From Juglans regia (taxonomy: Eukaryota; Streptophyta; Magnoliopsida; Fagales; Juglandaceae): 64,000 nt of DNA. The stretch lies in NCBI RefSeq assembly GCF_001411555.2, contig NC_049905.1, positions 7,593,053-7,657,052 on the forward strand, read 5' to 3'. The notes below the pieces were generated by a model. The model was not told where the DNA came from and did no database searches. It saw only the letters and a list, made by a program, of their open reading frames with translations. Made by a program: the position numbers and the translations under genes. Below are positions 2,231-64,000 of the stretch, piece after piece (the stretch's first letter is position 1; every line of letters starts with the position of its first letter).

Positions 2231-2894
2231 TTAAATTATAAAAAAAATTATTTTAAAATAAATATTATGCATCAAGTAAAACTAGGGCAATTTATAACAA
2301 AAAAAAACGGGGGAAAATGGGTACCATGGCAGTTTGGGGGAGAGGGGTTGGCTGCAGTAGTGACTTGTGTTAGGTCGGTTCCAACACGAGTAAACAAAAT
2401 TATCGTCATCATGGGCGTGGTGCACACGCGTAGTGGTTTTGGGGTCATAGCGTGCAACAGCAGGTGGTTTGCATGATGAGACTGGAGAAGGTTGGGGCAG
2501 CGTGGTTTTTAGAGCTAGAAAATGAATAACAATGCTGTGACAATAGGATTCCTCCCTTATTATTCTTTTTTAATTATTTTTTTAATTTTTTTATTATTTT
2601 ATTTTATTTAATAATTAAATAAGTGATTATTAATAAATTTATGTATTTTTTAAATTTTTTTCTTAATGATTAAAGATATTAAAATTTATTTAAAAAATAA
2701 TAATAAAAAAATAAGAATTTCAAATATAAGTAATAAAAAAATAATAAAAATAATAAGTATCATTATTCGTAACGATATACTGACAGCAGCGGCAAAAAGA
2801 GAGAAGCTGAATCTTTACAGTTGTAAAATCACAAATTATTTCGTTTTTGGACACCTCTCGACTCTCTCAAAGACTAATGCTAATTACAAGTTTT
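2231..2894. other. AT-rich intergenic DNA, no gene
   Basis: A short GC-richer stretch (2280-2520) is followed by extremely AT-rich sequence. The part at 2540-2790 resembles 30660-30890 (TTAATGATTAA..AT..TTAAAA), so it is probably another MITE-type repeat. No gene was recognised. Confidence 0.45.
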
Positions 2895-3097
2895 AACTCT
2901 AGTTTATTTTTACAATTCTTCTCAATTTATCTAATTTAATTATTACAATTTTTTTAATTTTTCATACAAAATAAAATAAAATTTTTAATTTTTTCAAATC
3001 TCAAAATAAAAATAATATTAAAAAAATATATTCTAACAATATTTTATTCAACATTTAACTTTAATCTCAATTCATCTGCAAAAACAAACGAGGCCTT
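2895..3097 (-). mobile_element. MITE, GAGATGAGAT family
   Basis: The AT-rich core, which reads AATCTCAAAATAAAAATAA, and the right end CAAAAACAAACGAGGCC match a repeat family found at least eight times in this window. No protein is encoded. The left end is eroded. Confidence 0.7.
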
Positions 3098-3103
3098 AGG
3101 AGC

Positions 3104-3151
3104 TATTTATAAATTGAGATGAGATGAGATAAAATAAAATAAAAAAGTTTT
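3104..3151 (+). mobile_element. Left part of a GAGATGAGAT MITE split by the LTR element
   Basis: The sequence up to 3151 reads GAGATGAGATGAGAT then A/T-rich, the usual start of this family. It is broken by the LTR retroelement, and its continuation is at 6579-6766. Confidence 0.7.
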
Positions 3152-3551
3152 TGTTATGAACCCAACTAAGTTGGGCCGGGCTTGATGGGCCTCCAACCTA
3201 GTTGTGATCTTTAATTTTAGTAAGTTGCTAAGTTGTCGTTTAGTGGCCCATGGCCTTAGTTGATGGTTTTCGTTTAGGGGCATTTTTCCCAATATATGTA
3301 GTGGATGGCAGTATTGTTGGGATTATTCTGGAAATTGCCAAGTGTTATCTAATTTTCTTTATTCAGTGTAAGGAGGTTGGTTCTCCCTCAAAGTAGAATC
3401 CTTATCAATACAATGGTGTGGCTCTGAGGAATTTTATAAAACACCTACTATACCTCCCTTTTCTTATGGCTTTCAGTGTTTGTTTAATTTCTTCTTTACC
3501 ATTTTACATTACGAACAGATTGTAGTACATTAACAGGGAAGGGTCTTAACA
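3152..3551 (+). repeat. 5' LTR of the gene-carrying element
   Basis: It is a 400-bp direct repeat of 6180-6578 with TG..CA ends. The two copies share long identical blocks such as CTAAGTTGTCGTTTAGTGGC and differ by scattered substitutions and small indels. Confidence 0.9.
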
Positions 3552-3552
3552 A

Positions 3553-3566
3553 GTGGTATCAGCTAG
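3553..3566 (+). other. Primer-binding site, tRNA-Met type
   Basis: TGGTATCAGCTAGC starts two bases after the LTR. Its first nine bases match the common plant LTR primer site TGGTATCAGAGC; the rest is diverged. Confidence 0.7.
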
Positions 3567-3582
3567 CAGTCAATCCTCATGG

Positions 3583-3926
3583 ACGGGGTAAGATTCAACG
3601 AGGAGCAAACAAAGTTGTTTGAAAATTTTTTGGATAAGTTGTTATAGTTGAAAGAAATAATGAAAGTGCAAGTAAATTGTAAGAGAATGCAACAAAGTTG
3701 TGTTGAGATAAAGCAGACTCTACGGAACTGGCAAGACGAAGAAGAGGAAGAAAATGGACCGAAAGATGGGGATGAACTTGTGGAGGAAGCCGTAGAAAAG
3801 GCACCAATGGTGGAGGGCAATGTAATGTTGGCCACAGAAATTACCCTAAAAGAAATGCCTCTGCCCTCTTCTCCTCAACCAATTTTCAGGCCTATGCAGA
3901 TCACTCAGAATCACATTGTTCCCTAG
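3583..3926 (+). pseudogene. 5' ORF relic of the LTR element (gag position)
   Basis: A reading frame opens with ATG near 3580, is broken by a TAG after about 22 codons, and continues to a TAG near 3924. The product is acidic, with a run EEEEE, and looks like an amphipathic helix-rich N-terminus. It stands where gag would be but has no zinc knuckle or recognisable capsid domain. It may be a gag remnant or another captured piece; I do not recognise it. Confidence 0.4.
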
Positions 3927-3992
3927 ACTTCCTCAAGTAACAAACACATAATCTCCAATCTCTTCATTTATATTCCCAGGGCACAAAGATAT

Positions 3993-4901
3993 TTGATGAA
4001 GAATAGGATGAGAACATGGATTCTATCATGGCGATTATCAAAAAGAAGATTTCTCTTGTATGAAGGCAAACTGACTGTAGAAGGAGAAAATCGGGCCATT
4101 ATAATCCCTCCTAAGCCTCCTCCTACCAAAAGGAACGTTGCTTTTCGGTGCCAACAAGAATCGATCACCATGCAGATTTCCATGACAACCCAAACTGGGA
4201 AGACCAGTACTCTGGAGATTAAGCCTCTACCACCTACCAAGGGTGGTGAAATTTATTTTTTATTTTTGAAGCAGTACACAAAGGAACAATTGATTGTCGA
4301 AGCCCAACCTCTATTCCAATGGAATTCTTTCAATTGGATCCCCAACCACAACCTGTGGAGGTCAACATTAAGGTGTGAGGGGTGGAGTTTGAAGACGGAT
4401 GAGGAAACCGTTGATGGTCAGGTGAAGTGTGAGAAGTGGATCCGAGATGATGAAAGTTCTGCTACGAAGGGGGGTTTGAAGTTTGAGGATGAGATCGAGG
4501 AGGAGAAGCAGAAACAGGAAGAAGAAGAAGAAGAAGAAGAAGAAGAAGAAGGAGATGACGAAGATGACCATGACCCCTCCAAACAACGTCGTCTCCACCA
4601 TCTTAAGGAGCAATGGGTTCCTTGGGGACAGGTTTATGAAGTTTTTTCAATGGTAAAAGCTTCGGCCAAACCTACAAACCCATTCGGTCAGACCGGTGTG
4701 CGTATCATGGTTGTTGAAGATAGAGGTACTGGGAAATCGAGCATCATTGTGATGGCCGCGGTTGAGAACTTCGCAGAAAATGTGTCGCTGGTGTTGCCTC
4801 CGACGAGGCTTTCAAATGATTTCTTTCCCGACGTGTGCCCATTACAATCATTGACACTTCATCTCGTGAGGAGGATGATGGAAAAGTGGCCGAAGAATTA
4901 A
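3993..4901 (+). pseudogene. Chimeric ORF: unknown - GALT - poly-Glu - Miro P-loop
   Basis: This is a 302-codon open frame inside the LTR element. Residues 1-120 are unrecognised. About residues 124-155 match a hydroxyproline O-galactosyltransferase. A (GAA)n tract encodes a poly-glutamate run (about 170-188). From about residue 234 the frame enters the first GTPase domain of a Miro protein. The Miro match leaves this frame near 4832, where a small deletion shifts it to the next frame. The ORF is open over 900 bp despite being a patchwork. Whether it is expressed cannot be told from sequence. Confidence 0.6.
4362..4460 (+). pseudogene. Captured fragment of Hyp-O-galactosyltransferase (GALT)
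   Basis: The frame reads LRCEGW, then DEETVDGQVKCEKWIRDD. This is a hallmark segment of plant GALT2-6-type hydroxyproline O-galactosyltransferases, lying in their galectin-like lectin domain. These Golgi enzymes add galactose to arabinogalactan proteins. Only about 32 residues are present of a family normally over 600, so it is a captured scrap and not a gene. Identification rests on my memory of the family. Confidence 0.7.
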
Positions 4902-5068
4902 GGCAGGCTGATGCAGTTGTGTTTACTTATGCGTGTGAGGAGCCTTCTACACTTGATCGATTGAGTACTTTCTGGCTCCCTAAGCTTCATAAATTAAACG
5001 TAAAAGTCTCAATAATAGTGCTGGGTTATAAGTTGGATTTGAGAGATGAGAATCAACAAGTGAGCCTG
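4693..5068 (+). pseudogene. Captured N-terminal GTPase domain of Miro
   Basis: Miro proteins are mitochondrial outer-membrane GTPases that control mitochondrial movement and shape. The fragment shows GTGKSS (P-loop; the first P-loop Gly appears changed to Glu), LPPTRL, then after a frameshift near 4832 [26 protein letters not shown] and [14 protein letters not shown]. The last contains a KLDLRD guanine-specificity motif. It stops there and joins H+-ATPase sequence. EF hands, second GTPase domain and membrane anchor are absent. It runs without introns across what should be several exons, which suggests a spliced source. Confidence 0.82.
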
Positions 5069-5079
5069 GAGCTTAAAAA

Positions 5080-5366
5080 AATTAAGATAAAACGTTTTGC
5101 CGATGGTGGATGGAGCGAACAAGATGTTGCAATCTTGGTGCCAAGAGACATTATCAGCGTTAAACATGGAGATATTATCGCCGCTGACATTCGTCTTCTC
5201 GAAGGAGTTCCACTTAAAATTGATGAATTTGCTCTAACTAGAGAATCCCATGCTGCCACATGTGAAAATGGTGAAATAGAAGCAGTCGTGATTGCCATAG
5301 GAGTCCACACCTCTTTCAATAGAACTGTCCATTTGGTGGACACCACCCATCGAGCTGGGAACTTCT
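5080..5366 (+). pseudogene. Captured actuator-domain fragment of plasma-membrane H+-ATPase
   Basis: The frame continues in phase from the Miro piece and reads [54 protein letters not shown] and [12 protein letters not shown]. This is the actuator region between membrane helices 2 and 3 of the P3A proton pump. The conserved TGES motif reads TRES, which would disable dephosphorylation. A stretch of about 15 residues after TRES is missing. About 95 residues remain of a pump of about 950. The fragment ends at a TAG at 5366-5368. Confidence 0.85.
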
Positions 5367-5458
5367 AGAAGACTATCTCTACAAGTGGTAATTTCGTTAT
5401 TTGTTGGGTTGATATCCTAGAAAGTAGTAAGCAGATTAATATATTATGGAATTTTCTT

Positions 5459-5983
5459 ATGGAAATGAGAGAGGCTCTTTGCTATGAAATTTATTTAAAA
5501 AATTCTTGGGTTGTTTTTAACATGTCTGATGAATTGCATGAGAGAGGGTTAGACCCTGATAATGTCATGTTTTCGATCTTAATTGTGGTGATAAAGGATG
5601 ATGAAGATTTTTACAATATGGTTTGTATTGATACTGAAGCTGAAGCAAGCTATGGATTAGAAATGATTGGAACAATGGGTTTTTCTCTATATATTTGCAC
5701 ATTGTCAGGGCAGGTTACACTTGAATATTTGGGTCCAAGAAAAATGGACCTTGGCTTTCAAGTTCATGGGGAACCTGGTGCTGTTGTGACCAACATCCAT
5801 CTTGTTGAATGGGTGTTGATGGTTTGGGTGAGTTTGCTTTTTGACGAGCTTGTTGGCATGCTTGGCCTTGTCTTTCATTGGATTGAAAATGCAGTCAATG
5901 TGCTGGCAAGCTATATAATATTCCTTGGTAACTATTTGGTAGAGTTTCCATTTAAGGGTGGATTGGCTAGAACCAAACTATAG
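5459..5983 (+). pseudogene. Chimeric ORF: probable PPR repeat then dihydroxyacetone kinase
   Basis: This is an open frame of 174 codons in the same element. Residues about 18-43 (MSDELHERGLDPDNVMFSIL) resemble one pentatricopeptide repeat. From about residue 58 the frame reads AEASYGLEMIGTMGFSLYI, CTLSGQVT, LGPRKMDLG and VHGEPGAVV. These match the DhaK domain of plant dihydroxyacetone kinases around the segment ending in HGEPG. The last 60 residues are hydrophobic and unrecognised. The PPR call is weaker than the kinase call. Confidence 0.65.
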
Positions 5984-6179
5984 CGATCACTTGAGGAATA
6001 CATGTCTATGTTAATCGATGTGGTTGCAAGCCTACAAGGGAGGATGTCAAAAGATGCTTTATGTTGGAATTTCATAGATCTGAATAGCAACAGAGGCAGG
6101 AATGTTAAATTGGAACCAATACCATAGAGTTGCTTCAATATCTAAACCTTAAGGACAATTTTCTTTAAATGGAAGAATT

Positions 6180-6578
6180 TGTTATGAACCCAACTAAGTT
6201 GGGCTAGGCTTGATGGGCCTCCAACCTAGTTGTGATCTTTAATTTTAGTAAGTTGCTAAGTTGTCGTTTAGTGGCCCATGGCCTTAGTTGATGGTTGTCG
6301 TTTAGGGGCATTTTTCCTAATATATGTCGGGATGGCAGTTTTGTTGGGATTATTCTGAAAATTGCCAAGTGTTATCTAGTTTTCTTTATTCGGTGTAAGG
6401 AGGTTGGTTCTCCCTCGAAGTAGAACCCTTATCAATACGATGGTGTGGCTTTGAGGATTTTTATAAAATACCTACTGTGCCTCCCTTTTCTTGTGGCTTT
6501 CAGTATTTGTTTAATTTTTTCTTTACCATTTTACATCACAAACAGGTTGTAGTACATTAACAGGAGAGGGTCTTAACA
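6180..6578 (+). repeat. 3' LTR of the gene-carrying element
   Basis: It is a 399-bp direct repeat of 3152-3551. The sequence just inside it (AAATGGAAGAATT) is only weakly polypurine, so the plus-strand primer site is eroded or atypical. Confidence 0.9.
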
Positions 6579-6766
6579 CTTTTAAATGAAAGTTGAATAA
6601 AATATTATTAGAGTATTATTTTTTAATATTATTATTATTTTGAGATTTGAAAAAATTAAATTATTTATTATATTTTGTGTAAAAATTTAAAAAAGTTGTA
6701 ATGATAAAATGGGATGAGATGAGATGGGTTGAGAGAGTTTCTCAATCCAAATGACTCTTTAAATAG
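6579..6766 (+). mobile_element. Right part of the MITE split by the LTR element
   Basis: It resumes the GAGATGAGAT family with AAAGTTGAATAAAATATTAT, TTTTGAGATTTGAAAAAATT, GGGATGAGATGAGATGGG and a terminal CTCTTTAAATAG. It shows that the LTR element landed in an existing MITE. Confidence 0.75.
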
Positions 6767-8465: not shown

Positions 8466-8929
8466 TATTTTTCTTATACAAGGGTAGCTAGTTCATTGAT
8501 TCTATTAATTTACCTTTTATATGAATGAATTGATTCGAGTTTATTACGGAATTTTATTATATGTATAGTAATAATTTATTTATTTTTCGATCGAGCTTGG
8601 AAGTTGTTTGTCACTAACTATTTGATTTAGACCAAATAAATTATTTATTTTATAATTTTTACTATTATTTTTTACTTTATCTATAAGTATTCATGATAAA
8701 AAAAACAAAAATTTTTTTTTAAATATTTATTATAAATAAATCAATTATTATTTTTAAAGGGAGACCGTTTTTGATAGAGTCAATATCGATCGTTGCTGAC
8801 GGATAATGTTTTTTATAAGAAGAGAGAGATGGCCTTGTTTGGCAGTGCGAAGGCAGGAGAAATTGATTGCAAATTCCAAGTCCAACGTCATTACAGTTAC
8901 AACTGACAGTTCTCATGAGTTTAGACGGG

Positions 8930-10185: not shown

Positions 10186-10789
10186 GAATGAGTAAGCCAC
10201 AAGTATTTTTTTTTAAAAAAAAAAGTAAGATCTATTATTAAAAAAAAAATTATATATTTTTTATATAAATCTCTTATTCAAACATATTTTTAAAGAAATA
10301 TTACGAAATTTACACATTATAAACTATAAATATCATTCTAAAAAAAGAAAAAAGTACCACTGAATTGAGTGACACATAAATTCCAATTTGGTTGGTGGTA
10401 TAGCCACATCAATCCTAGTCTGCGGTCAACATGGTGCGGGGGTCTCCTTTTGTCGAAAGGTTTGCTCACCTCCAATCAGTCTTGACTCTTGGAGTCAGGG
10501 AAAGCTGGCCGGAGACTCTTCTTAAAGGACATGCTTCGATCATTTCTTCGTCTTTAATCCTAAATTATTGTGGTTTTTTTTAACGTCTTCTGAAATAAAT
10601 GTCCGCTTTCAACATCTCTGTAGATATGAAGGTTTCGTCATGTGTTGACGAAATACGGCCGACACCCAATACGAGAAATCCCAACGTGACAAGAAATTGT
10701 GTTCAGGTCTTCTTCCTTTTTGATAAATTGGTTTACATACTCTGAATGCTGATTCTGATTTTTTTTAGGACTTTTTTAGTCTTTTAGGC

Positions 10790-10985
10790 CTTGTTTGTTT
10801 TGAAAAAATATCTCATCTCATATCATCTAATTATTACAACTTTCTCAACTTTTAATATAAAATAAAATAAATAATTCAACTTTTTTAAATCTCAAAACAA
10901 AAATAATATTAAAAAATATACTCTAAAAATATTTTATTCAACTTTTTAATTTTAATCTCATCTCATTTCCGAAAACAAACGTGAC
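10790..10985 (-). mobile_element. MITE, GAGATGAGAT family, well preserved
   Basis: The terminal inverted repeats are clear: CTTGTTTGTTTT then ATCTCATCTCA on the left, TCTCATCTCA then AAAACAAACGTGA on the right. The core has the common AAATCTCAAAACAAAAATAA. It is about 196 bp long. Confidence 0.8.
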
Positions 10986-15190: not shown

Positions 15191-16817
15191 ATCTACTGAA
15201 ACTCCTACTGAGTGAGCTTTAAACTTTGAGCTCATTTTAGATTTTGACAATTTAAAGTATGTCAGATAACTTAATACGTAAATTATAAACAATGATGGAG
15301 TTTGTACAAAATGTAATTTTTCAAAGAAAAAAAATTGTAATCTTTAAGGGCGCATGGCTTAACTGAATATGTGGAGGGTGTAGTTATGGGTGTTCTTCTC
15401 TTTAAAAGAGACAAAAGAAGTCGTAGACAATATATCTATCTAATCGTCATGGGTGATGATGGTACACATACATATTTATAAAATAGTTGACAAGTCTACC
15501 CGCTAATCAATCCAAAAATATGTCACGAGCATGAAAAACACCGACTAAGAGGCCGGTTGAATGAATCATTACCATTAAGACTATATATATATATATATAT
15601 ATATGAATGAGAGGTATTTTTATAAAATTATTTATAAAATTAACTTTATTTTATAAAAATATATTTATTGTTAAACATGATTGTCTGGCGAGCTCCAAAT
15701 AAGTAAATTCCATACATATCATTGGTAAAAAAAAGGATTCTACTAATAAAAAATAATTTTTTTTACACATTTTAAAGGTGGGTTCTATTGTTTTATAAAA
15801 TCTTGTATAAAATTTATCTATTTGAAACTTATACAAATTATTTCTCGACTAAAAGATTGTGAAAAAAATTATGTATATCATTACTCATATTTTTTTCCAT
15901 AAATGCTTACATAAACATTTTCACACACACTATATATATATACACACATATATAATGGTAATTGCCTAGTTTGTTTTAGATGAGTTAATATAAAAGTTTA
16001 AAGTTGAATAAAATATTGTTAGAATATATTTTTTTAAATATTATTTTTATTTTAAGATTTAAAAAAATTTAATTTTTAATTTTATTTTATGTAAAAATTT
16101 AAAAAAATTATAATAAAGAGATGAGATGAAAATGATTACGAAAACATACATATTAACTATGTAGGTATGATCTCTTGAGCTCCACATGGCAGACGTGTAG
16201 AGGAAGATCAGGATAGATGGTGCATGCATGCCTTGTTGGCGCACTGGGTTTTAGATGAGCAGGACATCCTCTGTCAAAGAGTGTCGACTCTTGATAAAAA
16301 TATTATATATACGTACCTGGGTTTTGGCTGTCATTGTATGGTACTTAGGAATTGTAGGACTTGATCTTTGGCTTCTATGGTACTGGCCAAAGTTGCCAAA
16401 CATATACAATTAAGTTTAACTATATATATATATATATATATATGATAACTTAATAGGAGAAAACTTAATTTAATTCATATTAATTGCATTGATATGGTTG
16501 ATTTAGCTATAAGTAATTAAATCATGTAAACTAAAAATATAATCTCCTCTAATAAAATCCTAAATACAAGTCAACAAGTTTTTTCGAGAAAATCTTAACT
16601 TATAATTAACGACTTGACTTGGTTGAAACTTGACTCATTAGATGCGTATAATTTTTTTTATTACGATTATATACGAAGCATGCATTTCATATCCAACGAC
16701 GAGAATTGAATCCAAACTAGTTAATTTATTTGTCGCTTATAACATATATGCTAGTTGTATTAAGTTTTAAATCCTCGAAGACATGATTTGAAGGATCCTA
16801 GGAATGATTTGTTCCTG

Positions 16818-31179: not shown

Positions 31180-31388
31180 AGGAGGTTTGGATAGTTAGTT
31201 GAGATGAGATAAATTGAAATAAAAGTTGAAAGTTGAATAAAATATTATTAGAATATTATTTTCTAATATTATTATTATTTTGAGATTTGAAAAAATTGAA
31301 TTATTTATTGTATTTTGTGTAGGAATTTAAAAAAATTATAATGATAAGATGATATGAGATAAAATGTATTTTTGTATCTAAACCTAGT
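31180..31388 (+). mobile_element. MITE, GAGATGAGAT family
   Basis: It starts AGGAGGTTTGGATAGTTAGT and GAGATGAGATAAA, has the core TTTTGAGATTTGAAAAAATT and ends TATCTAAACCTAG. Confidence 0.75.
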
Positions 31389-38411: not shown

Positions 38412-38572
38412 ATAGATGATTTCATCTCATCATTATAAATTTTTTAAATTTTTATACAAAATATAAAAAATAATTTAATTTTTTCAAATCTTAAAATAAT
38501 AATAATATTAAAAAATAATATTCTAAAAATATTTTATTCAATTCATTTAAAATCATCTCATCATCCAAGCGA
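38412..38572 (-). mobile_element. MITE, GAGATGAGAT family
   Basis: It starts GATTTCATCTCATCATTATA, has AATCTTAAAATAATAATAAT in the core and ends AATCATCTCATCATCCAAGC. Confidence 0.7.
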
Positions 38573-42227: not shown

Positions 42228-45200
42228 TTTTTCAAAATTCATAGCGTGTAGAGAGGCCACAGGTCCGTAACCATCAAAGGTCAATGCCGACAAAACTATC
42301 AAGATTGGACCACAGAAAACACCCCAAAACACTGAAGAACAAGATAATAGAGCGGGAGCCATCAACAGCTTGATCGTAATATTCGGTCACCACTTCCTCA
42401 TATGGCTTGCACTGCCTCAACTCAACCTCTCTTCATCCTCGAACTCTTACATTCTCACCCAACTCATCGAACGAAACCATCACAAGCTTTCATCTGTTGC
42501 ACTCAACGGAGGACATGCCCGTGTTTATCTTATGACAGTCATTTTAAGGCCAATTTTCCAACGTTCCCGAAGCTCCCTTTGCTCTCTGGCCGTCCAAGCA
42601 GATTCAATGTGAGGACCCAATTTCCCTCATTTTTTGTTTCCTCCTGTGCTTTGTTTGATTTTTGTTTCTCTTTTGGTTTTGTGGGCAGGTAGGAGTACAG
42701 AAAGTGGATGCTTCTGGGGAAGAGGGTGAGTCGCTTGTTTCTGACGCAACGTATCAGGAGAAATTTACTTGGTCTTCTGTGATTTTGCCGTGCGTTTCTA
42801 CCACTTTCTCTTTATTTTAACGCGTGTATTACATCTTTTTGGCAAATCCGTGTTCTGCTTTTTCTATGTATTTGATGGGTGTTGAAAATACCAAAGTATT
42901 CCTTAGTTCTTGCGCCAGAATTGATGCGGGTGACACTTATTTGTCATTTTTTAGTGCGAGCTATGGTTTTTGTGACGTGCAAATGCAATCTCAAAATTGG
43001 ATCTTCAACCTTGATGAAACTAGATAGAATATTGGAATTACTTCTCTTTTAGTTTCGGTGTCAAAGCAAGACCGGTGCTTTTCAATATGTTGGCTATGGC
43101 TAATTCATGGTAGTGGGATTTTTCATGGCTGTTTGGATGTAAAGAGAGTAGCGTGAATCAAGAAATAGTACGTGACTATGGTTTTTGTATTGACATATTT
43201 TTTTCAAGGAAAAGATAATCAAATCATTGCCTCAATTTAATTTTGTTCCTACAATTTTAGGTTTCTGTTCCCAGCCTTGGGAGGTTTGTTGTTTGGGTAT
43301 GACATTGGTGCCACCTCCAGTGCTACCATCTCATTACAGGTGCATATCTATATATAATTTTCATTTACTTCTTTCTCATGTATTTGATTTTCTTTCAGCC
43401 ATCTTTCTTGTTGTTCTAATAACCACCAAATGATCCAAAATATGCATTTTTCTTCTTGTTGTACCTTGATGATTTGACAGTCACCTGAGCTCAGTGGAAC
43501 AACTTGGTTCAATCTTTCAGCCATTCAGCTTGGACTTGTGGTACGGTTCAAGGATCATAGTCACATAATCTACTATTGTTCTGGAAACTTGCAGTTTTTT
43601 TCTTCCAAAAACCTCCTATGATATGTTAATACACTCAATTCAGGTTAGTGGTTCCCTTTATGGAGCTCTTCTTGGTTCCCTTCTTGTCTATCCAATTTCA
43701 GACTTCCTTGGTATGTCCTAATTTTCTCTGTCCTGTCCTTAGAGCTTGTTTACGAGTTTTTATCTAATATAATGGATTTTATCACAAAGGGAGGAGGCGA
43801 GAACTTATCACGGCAGCTGTGCTATATGCTCTTGGTGGTCTGACCACTGCCTATTCTCCAGCCCTTGTTGTTCTTTTAGTGGGACGGCTGCTCTATGGCC
43901 TTGGTATTGGTTTGGTGGGCTTTTTTTTAAACTCCACTACTATTTTGTGTGGACTTAGCTGCTATGATGTACTTGGTCATACTCCACCAACTTTATAAGT
44001 GAATTTGTTTGTCAGGCCATGCATGGGGCTCCTCTCTATATTGCAGAAACTTGCCCATCTCAGATTCGTGGAACTCTAATATCTGTAAAGGAGCTCTTCA
44101 TAGTTCTTGGGATTCTGGTATTGTGTACTCCTTTATTATTCTTGACAATCATGTTGTTCACTTTCTTATATTTAGTGACAAGCTAAAAAATGATTTCTTC
44201 TGCAGTTGGGCTATTTTATTGGAAGCTTTCAGATTGATGTAGTTGGAGGGTGGCGTTACATGTTTGGAGCTAGTGCACCGATTGCTCTTATTATGGGACT
44301 CGGCATGTGGAGTCTTCCACCATCTCCACGCTGGCTGCTTCTTAGGGCCGTCCAAGGAAAAGGTTTATTACAAGATTATAAAGAGAAAGCATTTCTTGCT
44401 CTGAGCAAACTAAGGGGCCGTCCTCCTGGTGACAAGCTGTCTGAAAGGCAAATAGAAGACACATTGGTCTCATTGAAATCTGCATATGCGGATCAGGAGT
44501 CTGAGGGCAGTTTCTTGGAGGTCTTTCAAGGCTCAAGTTTGAAAGCCTTCCTAATTGGTGGGGGGCTGGTCCTTTTTCAACAGGTATTTTACCCTTTCGC
44601 TGTTTTGAATTGCCTCTTTTATTTTCATTTTGAACTTGAGTTCCAACAAGCATATAATGGAGAAATGTGGAGTTTTTCTAGTTGGCAAGCCAATTTACCA
44701 CCTGACTGTGACAGATAACTGGGCAACCAAGCGTTCTATATTATGCAGGTCCAATACTTCAGGTACTTGTTGTTTATAAAAATCTTTGATTTTCATTAAA
44801 TGCATTCCTTTACGTCAGTTCACTTAACCACACAATATTCTTTGTTATTCTGATAAGACTGCTGGGTTTTCTGCGGCCTCTGATGCTACCCGAGTTTCTG
44901 TTGTAATTGGCGTGTTCAAAGTAAGTAATAATCTTCTAGTTATGTCTTTGAATATGGGGGAGAGTCTCCCAGCATATTTGTCTTGGTAAAGCTAATGGTA
45001 ATACTAATAAATTTGTGATGTTTCCTCCTTCAGTTCCTGATGACATGGATAGCTATCCTAAAAGTAGATGATCTTGGGAGAAGACCCCTGCTAATCGGAG
45101 GAGTCAGCGGGCTTGTATATCACTTATGACCATCTATCTATTAAATGATTTTAATCATTGGATTTTCGCTGATAAAAATTATGATGAAAGTTTAAATCTG

Positions 45201-46060
45201 CTTTTCTTTAAATTACTACAGGCTCTTTCTTTATTTATGCTTTCTGCTTATTATAAATTTCTCGGAGGGTTCCCTATTGTTGCTGTAGCCAGTCTACTTC
45301 TCTATGTCGGTTGCTACCAGGTAACATTTTGTCTTTTAAGGATTGAAATTTTCTGCACTATTTCTTTCAGAGAATCAAATATAATTCTGAGGAGAAATAC
45401 TAGAGTGTTGCAAAAGTGGCTGAATTCAAACTTGTAACATCCACTGAAAAGTCTACGTCAGAAAGCTACCTTGATTTAGAACTTTCTGAAGAAATAAAAA
45501 TAAAAGGAAAGCAGTTATGTATAACGAGTAATGGCAGTTTTTTCTTTATTACAAGGTTAATGTGAATGTTGATTCATTAACAGATTTCTGTTCTTTGAAT
45601 GGACTGTCAGATTTCATTTGGCCCGATCAGTTGGCTTATGGTGTCAGAGATATTCCCACTTCGGACAAGAGGGCGAGGGATTAGTCTTGCAGCTCTTACT
45701 AACTTTGGCTCAAATGCCATTGTAACCTTTGCATTCTCACCATTGAAGGTATTGATTTACTTTTATGAATCCATCCATTCCTTTCAAAGCTGGTTATCTC
45801 ATTGTTTAAAGTTCTCATTCCCTGTGATTTTGAATGTGGAGTGATTTGCTTATATTGCAGGAGTTGTTAGGAGCGGAAAATCTCTTCCTTCTTTTCGGGG
45901 CTATTGCTTTGTTGTCACTTTTGTTTGTAGTGCTCGTTGTCCCGGAGACCAAAGGGCTGAGCTTGGAAGATATTGAGTCCAAGCTTTTGAAGTGAAAGCG
46001 CAAATTGAAAATATGTACCAGTCGAGCTTCCAATACACCCAAGTCGTTTTGGTTAGTCTA
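42228..46060 (+). repeat. Segmental duplication unit, copy A
   Basis: From AAAATTCATAGCGTGTAGAG to GTCGTTTTGGTTAGTCT the sequence matches 60181-64000 through exons and introns, with scattered substitutions and small indels. The right limit cannot be seen because copy B runs to the window edge. Confidence 0.92.
42402..45995 (+). CDS. Chloroplast sugar/H+ symporter (D-xylose-proton symporter-like 3), copy A
   Basis: Fourteen exons: 42402-42608, 42689-42789, 43261-43339, 43481-43540, 43644-43710, 43790-43914, 44016-44117, 44206-44583, 44715-44762, 44858-44920, 45034-45114, 45222-45320, 45611-45748, 45861-45995. Introns are GT-AG; the CDS is 1683 nt (560 aa), matching the about 558 aa of the Arabidopsis plastid member. 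Residues 1-69 look like a transit peptide. Sugar-porter (MFS) signatures are present: GGLLFGYDIGA (110-120), VGRLLYGLGIG, GGWRYMFG, PPSPRWLLL (285-293) and PETKG (544-548). The protein should have 12 membrane helices in the inner envelope and move a sugar with protons; the true substrate is uncertain. Residue 123 is Ser where copy B has Gly. The frame is intact. Confidence 0.94.
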
Positions 46061-60180: not shown

Positions 60181-60343
60181 ATAAAATTCATGGCGTGTAG
60201 AGAGGCCACAAGTCCGTAACCATCAAAGGTCAATGCCGACCAAACTATCAAGATTGGACCACAGAAAACACCGAAGAACAGGATAATAGAGCGGGAGCCA
60301 TTAACAGCTTGATCGTAATATTCGGTCACCACTTCCTCATGAA

Positions 60344-63300
60344 ATGGCTTGCAGTGCCTCAACTCAACCTCTCTTCATCCTCAAACTCTTACATTCTCAC
60401 CCAACTCATCGAACGAAACCGTCACAAGCTTTCATCTGTTACACTCAACGGAGTACACGCCCGTGTTTATCTTATGACAGTCATTTTAAGGCCAATTTTC
60501 CCACGTTCCCGAAGCTGCCTTTGCTCTCTGGCCGTCTAAGCAGATTCAATGTGAGGACCCAAATTCCCTCATTTTTTGTTTCCTCCTGTGCTTTAGTGTT
60601 TGATTTTTGTTTCTCTTTTGGTTTTGTGGGCAGGTAGGAGTACAGAAAATGGATGCTTCTGGGGAAGAGGGCGAGTCGCTTGTTTCTGACGCAACGTATC
60701 AGGAGAAATTTACTTGGTCTTCTGTGATTTTGCCGTGCGTTTCTACCACTTTCTCTTTATTTTAACGCGTGTTTTACATCTTTTCGGTATTCTGCTTTTT
60801 CTATATATTTGATGGGTGTTGAAAATACCAAAGTATTGCTTACTTCTTCCGCCAGAATTGATGTGGGTGACACTTATTTGTCATTTTTTAGTGCGAGCTT
60901 TGGTTTTTGTGACGTGCAAATGCAATCTATAAATCGGATCTTCAACCTTGATGAAACTAGATAGAATATTGGAATTACTTCTCTTTTAGTTTCGCTGTCA
61001 AAGCAAGACGGGTGCTTTTCAATATGTTGGCTATGGCTAATTCATGGTAGTGGGATTTTTCATGGTTGTTTTGGATGTAAAGAGAGTAGCGTGAATCAAG
61101 AAATAGTACGTGACTATGGTTTTTGTATTGACATCTTTTTTTCAAGGAAAAGATAATCAAATCATTGCCTCAATTTAATTTTGTTCCTACAATTTTAGGT
61201 TTTTGTTCCCAGCCTTGGGAGGTTTGTTGTTTGGGTATGACATTGGTGCCACCTCTGGTGCTACCATCTCATTACAGGTGCATATCTATATATAATTTTC
61301 ATTTACTTCTTTCTCATGTATTTGATTTTCTTTCGGCCATCTTTCTTGTTGTTCTAATAACCACCAAATGATCCAAAATATGCATTTTTCTTCTTGTTGT
61401 ACCTTGATGATTTAACAGTCACCTGAGCTCAGTGGAACAACTTGGTTCAGCCTTTCAGCCATTCAGCTTGGACTTGTGGTACGGTTCAAGGATCATAGTC
61501 ATATAATCTACTATCGTTCTGGAAACTTGCAGTTTTTTTCTTCCAAAAACCTTCTATGATATGTTAATACACTCAATTCAGGTCAGTGGTTCCCTTTATG
61601 GAGCTCTTCTTGGTTCCCTTCTTGTCTATCCAATTGCAGACTTCCTTGGTATGTCCTAATTTTCTCTGTCCTGTCCTTAGAGCTTGTTTATGAGTTTTTA
61701 TCTAATATAATGGATTTTATCACAAAGGGAGGAGGCGAGAACTTATCACGGCAGCTGTGCTATATGTGCTTGGTGGTCTGACCACTGCCTATGCTCCAGC
61801 CCTAGGTGTTCTTTTAGTGGGACGGCTGCTCTATGGCCTTGGTATTGGTTTGGTGGGCTTCTTTGAAACTCCACTACTATTTTGTGTGGACTTAGCTGCT
61901 ATGATGTACTTAGTCATACTCCACCAACTTAATAAGTGAATTTGTTTGTCAGGCCATGCATGGGGCTCCTCTCTATATTGCAGAAACTTGCCCATCTCAG
62001 ATTCGTGGAACTCTAGTATCTTTAAAGGAGCTCTTCATAGTTCTTGGGATTCTGGTATTGTGTACTCCTTTTTTATTCTTGGCAATCATGTTGTTCACTT
62101 TCTTATATTTAGTGACAAGCTAAAAAATTATTTTCTCTGCAGTTGGGCTATTTTATTGGAAGCTTTCAGATTGATGTAGTTGGAGGGTGGCGTTACATGT
62201 TTGGAGCTAGTGCACCGATTGCTCTTATTATGGGACTCGGCATGTGGAGTCTTCCACCATCTCCACGCTGGCTGCTTCTTAGGGCCGTCCAAGGAAAAGG
62301 TTTATTACAAGATTATAAAGAGAAAGCATTTCTTGCTCTGAGCAAACTAAGGGGCCGTCCTCCTGGTGACAAGCTGTCTGAAAGGCAAATAGAAGACACA
62401 TTGGTCTCATTGAAATCTGCATATGCGGATCAGGAGTCTGAGGGCAGTTTCTTGGAGGTATTTCAAGGCTCAAGTTTGAAAGCCTTCCTAATTGGTGGGG
62501 GGCTGGTCTTTTTTCAACAGGTATTTTGCCCTTTCGCTGTTTTGAATTGCCTCTTTTATTTTCGTTTTGAACTTAGAGTTCAAACAAGCATATAATGGAG
62601 AAATGTGGAGTTTTTCTAGTTGGCAAGCCAATTTACAACGTGACTGTGACAGATAACTGGGCAACCAAGCGTTCTATATTATGCAGGTCCAATACTTCAG
62701 GTACTTGTTGTTTATAAAAATCTTTGATTTTGATTAAATGCATTCCTTTATGTCAGTTCGCTTAACCACACAATATTCTTTGTTATTCTGATAAGACTGC
62801 TGGGTTTTCTGCGGCCTCTGATGCTACCCGTGTTTCTGTTGTAATTGGCGTGTTCAAAGTAAGTAATAATCTTCTTCTAGTTATGTCTTTGAATATGGGG
62901 GAGAGTCTCCCTGCATATTTGTCTTGGTAAAGCTAATGGTAATACTAATAAATTTGTGATGTTTCCTCCTTCAGTTACTGATGACATGGGTAGCTGTCCT
63001 AAAAGTAGATGATCTTGGGAGAAGACCCCTGCTAATCGGAGGAGTCAGCGGGCTTGTATATCACTTATGACCATCTATCTATTAAATGATTTTAATCATT
63101 GGATTTTCGCTGATAAAAATTATGAAGAAAGTTTAAATCTGCTTTTCTTTAAATTACTGCAGGCTCTTTCTTTATTTATGCTTTCTGCTTATTATAAATT
63201 TCTCGGAGGGTTCCCTATTGTTGCTGTAGCCAGCCTACTTCTCTATGTCGGTTGCTACCAGGTAACATTTTGTCTTTTGAGGATTGAAATTCTCTGCACT

Positions 63301-63936
63301 ATTTCTTTCAGAGAATCAAATATAATTCTGAGGAGAAATACTAGAGTGTTGCAAAAGTGGCTGAATTCAAACTTGTAACATCCACTGAAAAGTCTACCCA
63401 GAAAGCTACCTTGATTTAGAACTTTCTGAAGAAATAAAAATAAAAGGAAAGCAGTTATATATAACGAGTAATGACAGTTTTTTCTTCATTACAAGGTTAA
63501 TGTGAATGTGGATTCATTAACAGATTTCTGTTCTTTGAATGGACTGTCAGATTTCATTTGGTCCAATCAGTTGGCTTATGGTGTCAGAGGTATTCCCACT
63601 TCGGACAAGAGGGCGAGGGATTAGTCTTGCAGTTCTTACTAACTTTGGCTCAAATGCCATTGTAACCTTTGCATTCTCACCATTGAAGGTTGTTGATCTG
63701 TTTTTATGAATCCATCCATTCCTTTCAAAGCTGGTCATCTCATTGTTTACAGTTCTCATTCCCTGTGATTTTGAATGTGGAGTGATTTGCTTATATTGCA
63801 GGAGTTGTTAGGAGCGGAAAATCTCTTCCTTCTTTTCGGGGCTATTGCTTTGTTGTCACTTTTGTTTGTACTGCTCGTTGTCCCAGAGACCAAAGGGCTG
63901 AGCTTGGAAGAGATTGAGTCCAAGATTTTGAAGTGA
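60344..63936 (+). CDS. Chloroplast sugar/H+ symporter (D-xylose-proton symporter-like 3), copy B
   Basis: Fourteen exons of exactly the same lengths as copy A: 60344-60550, 60634-60734, 61199-61277, 61419-61478, 61582-61648, 61728-61852, 61953-62054, 62143-62520, 62653-62700, 62796-62858, 62975-63055, 63163-63261, 63551-63688, 63802-63936. Introns are GT-AG and the protein is 560 aa. By eye about two dozen residues differ from copy A, roughly 96% identity. Changes are concentrated in the transit peptide (for example Glu14Lys) and in conservative positions in the helices (Ile/Val, Leu/Phe). Sugar-porter motifs are all intact, and Gly123 is kept here. The upstream DNA beyond about 160 bp differs from copy A, so the two may be expressed differently. 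Confidence 0.94.
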
Positions 63937-64000
63937 AAGCACAACTTGAAAATTTGTACCAGTCGAGCTTCCAATACACCCAAGTCGTTTTGGTTAGTCT
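63937..64000 (+). other. Start of the 3' untranslated region of symporter copy B
   Basis: It matches the sequence after the stop of copy A up to the window edge. Confidence 0.6.

Follow-up and report, generated by a model that had tools for sequence, protein, structure and literature searches.

Among the published cases considered, one of the closest counterparts of the locus treated here is Bs1 of maize, a long terminal repeat (LTR) retroelement that carries three transduced gene segments, one of them from a plasma-membrane H+-ATPase (PMC13317346), and whose captured segments are exons only (PMC4717578). Among the terminal-repeat retrotransposons in miniature (TRIMs) of the latter paper, GmaRetroS15 holds up to three genes, gene-carrying TRIMs measure 1.17–1.45 kb, and those of soybean and Medicago contain exon fragments without introns and show 5-bp duplications (PMC4717578). 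Here we describe an LTR retroelement at positions 3152–6578 of a 64,000-nucleotide stretch of Juglans regia DNA (C5:7593053–7657052; below, the window), for which donor genes and sibling copies were sought in the window's own assembly (571 Mb). Like Bs1 as it is described there, it is an LTR element with fragments of several host genes, including a plasma-membrane H+-ATPase, and between its LTRs lie sense pieces, free of introns, from at least two host genes; unlike Bs1, it draws on at least six host genes and belongs to a genome-wide family with differing mosaics.

The element at 3152–6578 belongs to a non-autonomous LTR retroelement family, of which it is an old and decayed copy. It has LTRs and a target duplication, its fragments are of host origin, lie in sense orientation and have lost their introns, its siblings carry other or partly shared mosaics, and mosaics have been amplified as units. 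We consider it very probable that the family combines cis-signals derived from a chromovirus with an interior filled with fragments of spliced host mRNAs, the filling having presumably occurred by template switching. Judged by its features, the family would work like Bs1, but as a whole family and with more genes per element; the H+-ATPase found in both may be a coincidence or an effect of abundant mRNA.

A preliminary description of the locus had called plant LTR elements with even one transduced gene rare. This does not stand for single genes, given 425 maize LTR elements with captured host gene fragments (PMC2774510) and 1,343 genes captured by LTR elements in sorghum (PMC3726574); it does stand for several genes per element, and no element in the maize survey, under its conditions, combined fragments of two or more standard nuclear genes (PMC2774510). 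The single-gene captures reported from maize, rice and sorghum resemble the present element in having host fragments inside LTR elements and differ in the number of genes per element. With these TRIMs it has in common intron-free exon fragments of several genes and 5-bp duplications; unlike them it is 3.4 kb long (3,427 bp, outside the TRIM size range) with 400-bp LTRs, and several of its siblings keep a long, nearly open frame. A search of PubMed Central found no comparable multi-gene mosaic LTR family described in the open-access literature.

At least six host mRNAs are represented in the interior by sense pieces, namely those of ubiquitin, galactosyltransferase, HSP90, Miro GTPase, plasma-membrane H+-ATPase and dihydroxyacetone kinase. 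Possible additions are a PPR-like piece and an exon-like one.

4170–4229, forward strand: ubiquitin N-terminal fragment, reading MQISMTTQTGKTSTLEIKPL, placed by its score against the ubiquitin start
4355–4453, forward strand: galactosyltransferase fragment (lectin-domain, GALT type), two exons joined, parent L064
4457–4533, forward strand: HSP90 fragment, 88% identical to the gene at C13:39393968
4615–5072, forward strand: Miro GTPase fragment, three exons joined, starting upstream of the apparent start codon, parent L039
5102–5416, forward strand: plasma-membrane H+-ATPase actuator-domain fragment, parent L038
5407–5520, forward strand: PPR-like module common to other loci (L056, 79% over 114 bp)
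5629–5808, forward strand: dihydroxyacetone kinase fragment, two exons joined, parent L043
5823–5945, forward strand: module of unknown origin common to sibling L044 (83% over 123 bp)
6014–6082, forward strand: 69-bp exon-like piece, 94% identical to locus C5:668686

All six named pieces run in the direction of the element. Parent loci were located in the same genome for five of the six, on C2, C13, C8, C11 and C15, and four parental introns are absent from the element (two of Miro, one each of the galactosyltransferase and the kinase), which indicates that the source was spliced RNA. The galactosyltransferase pieces 4355–4414 and 4410–4453 match exons 852–911 and 2162–2205 of L064 (C2:4230000–4232900), which in the parent are separated by a 1.25-kb GT..AG intron that the element lacks; the lectin-domain identity is based on a related fragment in L056 (Gal-bind_lectin, 1.7e-10) and from the parent as read by eye. 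The Miro pieces 4615–4866, 4866–4996 and 5000–5072 match three blocks at L039 on C8; the element lacks the two introns between these blocks, which in the parent measure 2.88 kb and 0.26 kb and have GT and AG borders. The kinase pieces 5629–5758 and 5765–5808 match blocks 751–880 and 1164–1207 of L043 (C15), which lie 283 bp apart with GT..AG borders in the parent and 6 bp apart in the element. The H+-ATPase piece matches one exon at C11:34978779–34979129 (81%) and is 36 bp shorter than the parent stretch, within which there is no intron.

Protein-level comparisons agree with these assignments to different degrees. The H+-ATPase piece gives Pfam E1-E2_ATPase at 3.2e-14 and the PDB entry 5ksd (AHA2 H+-ATPase) at 1e-26. 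In the same open reading frame (ORF), the Miro piece gives a Pfam Ras domain at 3e-6, with Miro as the nearest solved structure (1.6e-6); the Miro N-terminal piece alone had no significant match in PDB (best E 1.7). The gene matched by the HSP90 fragment scores 2.1e-154 for Pfam HSP90, and the kinase piece gives Dak1 at 2.3e-4, under its Pfam cut-off. The ubiquitin piece scores 57 against the first 20 ubiquitin residues, the runner-up among 41,015 stop-free 20-mers of the window reaching 27; a ubiquitin-like piece is also present in siblings L012 and L014, just below or below the Pfam cut-off, and the same-genome searches did not locate a ubiquitin donor locus. For the locus C5:668686 no Pfam family was found. 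For residues 1–324 of the ORF at 3927–5366, none of the 1,105 word-sharing candidates from the protein database, which appears to be thin in plant proteins, reached E ≤ 0.01. The three antisense frames of the interior gave no Pfam host domain.

The galactosyltransferase, Miro, H+-ATPase and kinase fragments had all been proposed in the preliminary description, as intronless and oriented like the element; the parent loci, the missing introns and the sense-only Pfam hits bear this out, and the fragments trace to five separate loci instead of mapping with introns to one, which that description had named as the contrary outcome. The PPR repeat that it listed as probable was not confirmed by Pfam and is a module common to other loci. 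Its count of four or five host genes proved too low, since ubiquitin and HSP90 are to be added, and possibly the exon-like match at 6014–6082.

The framework around these fragments is that of an LTR retroelement inserted into a miniature inverted-repeat transposable element (MITE).

2913–3151: left part of the MITE hit by the insertion, inverted-repeat arm 2913–3055
3147–3151: target duplication, left copy, GTTTT
3152–6578: whole LTR retroelement, 3,427 bp
3152–3551, forward strand: 5' LTR, 400 bp, with sibling LTRs found
3554–3567, forward strand: primer-binding site TGGTATCAGCTAGC
3556–3788, forward strand: 5' leader or frame start, common to other family members
6117–6179, forward strand: 3' region with the polypurine-tract position, common to the family
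6180–6578, forward strand: 3' LTR, 399 bp
6579–6583: target duplication, right copy, CTTTT
6579–6731: right part of the MITE, inverted-repeat arm 6589–6731

Both LTRs have TG...CA termini and are 93.7% identical over 399 aligned bases, with 21 transitions, 4 transversions and one gap (Kimura two-parameter distance 0.066). Plant substitution rates range from 1.5e-9 to 1.3e-8 per site per year, which places the age of the element at roughly 2.5 to 22 million years. The primer site lies directly behind the 5' LTR, is of the TGGTATC type, which we take to be that of initiator-Met tRNA, and recurs in similar form at the corresponding position of several siblings. The leader, used as a query, matched nine places besides the window and L009/L010 from its first base over 203–248 bases. 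In the stretch 3556–4160 an ATG stands just behind the primer site, and for this reason the stretch may be a leader or the relic of a gag-like reading. A six-frame Pfam search of the interior found no transposable-element domain, and an Rfam scan of the window gave no match. In the LTR pair, the primer site, the probable target duplication and the lack of gag-pol, the earlier account of the locus was thus correct.

The two copies of the 5-bp target duplication differ at one base, and the insertion is backed by the empty site. The MITE arms 2913–3055 and 6589–6731 are 83% complementary, and the flanks joined without the element align across the junction to the MITE copy at 31197–31366 (86.5% over 178 bp) as well as to that at 15987–16129 (82%). 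Since the joined flanks run continuously along another MITE copy, the element is an insertion and not a segmental duplication. That a segmental duplication was taken for an LTR element, or that the host matches arose by chance, has a negligible probability: several single matches are indeed weak or below the cut-off (Dak1, M16, F-box, HGSNAT, PPR, and ubiquitin in L012), but parents with exact exon joints, the empty-site alignment, antisense controls without hits and the ubiquitin outlier refute it. The MITE belongs to one fold-back family with copies at 2891–3090, 10782–10981, 15964–16135, 31207–31368 and 38423–38552, about 80–92% alike, one of which is the host of the LTR element.

Sequence matches to the family LTR or 3' end occur in at least 47 places on 16 contigs when hits within 7 kb are merged; this rules out the segmental duplication without siblings that the preliminary description had named as a contrary outcome. 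The LTR search gave 46 matches from 40 scored out of 130 first-look candidates, the 3'-end search 41 from 40 of 135, and a search with the LTR and leader of L013 gave 44 from 40 of 184; of these, 41/46, 41/41 and 33/44 were merged, leaving out secondary pieces of listed hits and eight rows of the L013 search that matched only the U5 part. The 47 places are a lower bound for a sequence family; single LTRs are among them, as are five places of the LTR search where the match is confined to the U5 part. We scanned at least one ORF or frame in each of 25 sibling loci with Pfam, and 14 of them carry a host family above the curated cut-off.

Siblings with a host family above the cut-off: L012, L013, L014, L015, L024, L032, L042, L044, L049, L051, L052, L053, L054, L056
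Siblings with no match or only matches below the cut-off: L016, L017, L019, L022, L025, L033, L045, L046, L048, L050, L059

The cargo differs widely between loci: importin alpha in L044 (PDB, 1.1e-84), a LAMMER-type kinase in L013 (PDB CLK2, 5.5e-29), DNA polymerase B in L051 (6.8e-25), H+-pyrophosphatase in L054 (1.1e-28), and malic enzyme in L032 (3.8e-9), where an H+-ATPase piece lies in the same ORF. Hits to two unrelated host families, at or above the cut-off, occur together in the window element (E1-E2_ATPase and Ras), in L012 and L014 (kinase and Rieske), in L015 (cyclin, and an HMG box at the cut-off), in L052 (P450 and DUF629) and in L053 (DCB and CDP-alcohol transferase). L045 matches ClpX in PDB (1.8e-8); Pfam assigned no family to one ORF each of L016 and L017, to two ORFs of L048 or to several backbone pieces. 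At 0.01 Pfam found nothing in the three antisense frames of each of L014, L015 and L051 (0 of 9). LTR-bounding is not established for all of these loci: the stretches fetched for L045, L056, L057 and L059 contain no family LTR, and others contain the 3' part only.

Selection for cargo was reduced by taking eight places, L048–L055, by LTR or 3' end alone from about 14 unsampled 3'-end places. In this sample L049, L051, L052, L053 and L054 carry a host family above the cut-off and L050 one below it; L048 shows none by Pfam, though it reads as a host protein by eye, and L055, which was aligned outside the Pfam scan, is the L013 mosaic (96% over 1,323 bp).

A short reading, 'LLD[VI]LPLK..F.PFDRG' or 'ILWPFDRGK', recurs in L012, L013, L014, L015, L024, L025, L042, L046, L052 and L055, which are otherwise different mosaics; it may be a remnant of an old backbone or mark a hot spot of switching. 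L009 and L010 carry the window-element mosaic at about 89%. These two loci (C5, 15.68 and 15.80 Mb) form a segmental duplication (97.2% identity over 5.4 kb) within which the sibling element lies; roughly the first 156 bp of the 5' LTR are missing from both, and their interior exceeds that of the window element by about 860–880 bp.

The LTR pairs of L012, L013 and L014 are 98.3%, 99.2% and 98.9% identical, and their 5-bp duplications (TTGGA, GACGC and GATTT) are perfect, as is that of L024; near-identical LTRs and perfect duplications in the first three indicate that cargo-laden copies have transposed recently and that finished mosaics multiply. These three share the L013 mosaic with L055, and the four copies are 96–98% alike over 1.3 kb. 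Modules are also traded between elements, since the window block of H+-ATPase, PPR-like module and kinase (5243/5344–5788) recurs in L032 and in L033–L035 beside different neighbours. Four exons at C9:13064609–13065551 correspond to the kinase piece of L013 (92–97%), from which the three GT..AG introns between them are missing.

Pack-MULEs and Helitrons also capture gene fragments and join pieces of several genes, and one could suppose that such elements, or a repair patchwork, assembled the interior at the DNA level and that LTRs framed it later. These are DNA transposons without LTRs, and Pack-MULEs contain exons and introns (PMC4717578); in the window element introns are absent and LTRs present. 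Seven absent introns (four in the window element, three in the L013 kinase piece), together with the LTRs, the primer site and the perfect 5-bp duplications of the siblings, make capture at the DNA level hardly credible. It is refuted for the intron-tested fragments, while the HSP90, H+-ATPase and ubiquitin pieces span no tested intron.

The cis-signals lead to a candidate helper. The search with the LTR and leader of L013 also struck the U5 and primer-site part of other elements. One of these is the locus L066 (C3:15388450–15393900), whose terminal repeats agree at 94.9% over the fetched 429 bp and which has Pfam matches above the cut-off to gag, protease, reverse transcriptase (RT), RNase H and the zinc-binding part of integrase, with a chromodomain match below it, a set that assigns it to the Ty3/gypsy chromoviruses. 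It thus differs from the mosaic elements, in which no gag-pol domains were recognised, and shares with sibling L013 the U5 part, primer site and a stretch of the 3' end: the final 158 bp of the LTR (82%), the 23 bases behind it, which include the primer site, and 74 bp at the 3' end (77%), of which 36 bp lie before and 38 bp inside the 3' LTR of L013. Judged by these sequence matches, a Ty3/gypsy chromovirus of the L066 type is the likely helper lineage of the mosaic family. L018 and L019 were rejected as autonomous partners, the motif scan having shown no RT in either; one ORF of L019 was also given to Pfam. By eye L019 reads as carrying a LINE-like RT (LINE, long interspersed nuclear element), which we took for a nested insertion. 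This crude scan, which missed the LINE-like reading of L019, found one RT motif in the other loci, in L028. It reads YIDDVLVF, lies near position 8778 on the minus strand about 4 kb from a family LTR, and by eye resembles a caulimovirid RT.

In the mechanism that we propose, LTR parts, primer site, leader and 3' end would descend from a Ty3/gypsy chromovirus, whose proteins would package the element RNA in trans, and host mRNAs would be packaged along with it. Reverse transcriptase would then switch templates among the packaged RNAs; each surviving chimera would in turn be copied in the following round, and modules would be traded by switches from one mosaic to another. Spliced sense fragments, amplified mosaics and module exchange fit template switching in trans-supplied particles, and at the junction of the H+-ATPase and PPR-like pieces 10 bases are common to both sources except for one position. 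Template switching among packaged host mRNAs was offered as an inference in the preliminary description and keeps that standing.

Several observations weigh against this reading. L066 has no direct match to the window element at 1e-3 and is linked to it only via L013; its reading frames are broken, and this copy yields no working helper. The 74-bp match straddles the start of the LTR in L013, and the LTR start of L066 lies outside the fetched stretch. The galactosyltransferase/HSP90 junction has no long microhomology, and the Miro/H+-ATPase junction is ambiguous. Part of the stretch 3556–4160 is unassigned; many other places have portions of it in common with the element, and no protein family was recognised in it. 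By eye the polypurine tract is weak in the window copy, though purine-rich in several siblings. The LTR match of L055, the fourth copy of the L013 mosaic, is 89% over 110 bp in the fetched stretch, which shows that not all copies of this mosaic are young.

Sense, spliced fragments would also result from read-through transduction, in which element RNA runs into adjacent genes, is spliced and recombines back, with genes added by repeated rounds; transduction is the term applied to Bs1 in the source cited (PMC13317346). We regard this as unlikely, because separate events would be required beside at least five dispersed donor loci (C2, C13, C8, C11 and C15) and the fragments are internal gene pieces next to which no genomic flank was recognised, although not all unassigned stretches are explained. 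Very unlikely is the successive insertion of LINE-made processed pseudogenes into an ordinary LTR element. Processed pseudogenes are likewise intron-free, but the pieces here are in sense orientation only, are internal gene pieces rather than 3' ends, and adjacent host pieces often share one frame; no poly(A) or private duplications were noticed at the three junctions inspected, which were not scanned systematically.

The reading frame adds a further property to the mosaics. If one frame switch at most is allowed, 7 stops remain in the 876 codons of the window interior, compared with a mean of 42 (minimum 25) in 300 dinucleotide shuffles and 39 (minimum 20) in 222 other window stretches; the frame of this copy is interrupted by several stops and one frame change. 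Sense stops are below every one of 60 shuffles in 11 of 13 sibling interiors, and the deficit is clear in L012, L013, L014, L015, L016, L017, L019 and L025. A long open frame is not found throughout the family: L010 (47 stops, shuffle minimum 43) and L018 (92, minimum 84) are within their shuffles, L009 is hardly outside them (45 against a minimum of 47), and in L009 and L010 the antisense strand is more open than the sense strand. In several elements the antisense strand is also more open than shuffles, though less so (24 stops against a minimum of 34 in the window), which means that part of the effect is due to composition or codon structure.

In the elements scanned in all three sense frames, 9 of 12 junctions keep the same frame from one Pfam hit to the next (window 2/2, L014 2/3, L015 2/2, L025 0/1, L051 1/1, L053 1/1, L054 1/2; binomial tail at 1/3, 0.004). 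The count used thresholds of 5, 0.05 and 0.01, includes some weak hits and omits the chance hit FAM176 (E 1.6); with such mixed thresholds and weak hits it is support rather than proof. The sequences suggest that an unbroken frame has been of consequence for the element, which does not imply a functional protein.

It should be noted that the window also contains a direct duplication of 3.8 kb (42234–46059 and 60183–64000, 96.5% identical), the second copy of which reaches the window end; each copy has a similar ORF that by eye is sugar-transporter-like (44206–44718 and 62143–62595).

Exon shuffling by LTR elements has so far rested on few curiosities, chiefly Bs1. A family of multiplying, module-exchanging mosaics of several mRNAs makes the process testable, and within a single genome it becomes possible to count which donors are chosen, where switches occur, how well the frame is maintained and how often chimeric genes are born. 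Since the mosaic frames resemble multi-domain proteins, gene annotators should be cautious. A further-reaching interpretation, possible but one against which we lean, is that the family is a standing exon-shuffling engine in which gag-pol has been replaced by an ever-changing, selected, in-frame chimera of host coding sequence, the long frame being kept because the fusion protein or translation itself serves the element; the benefit could then lie in RNA stability, packaging or escape from nonsense-mediated decay, and every transposition cycle could try out new multi-domain proteins. Taken together, our results point to a lineage of elements that repeatedly acquires pieces of host messenger RNAs and reshuffles them.

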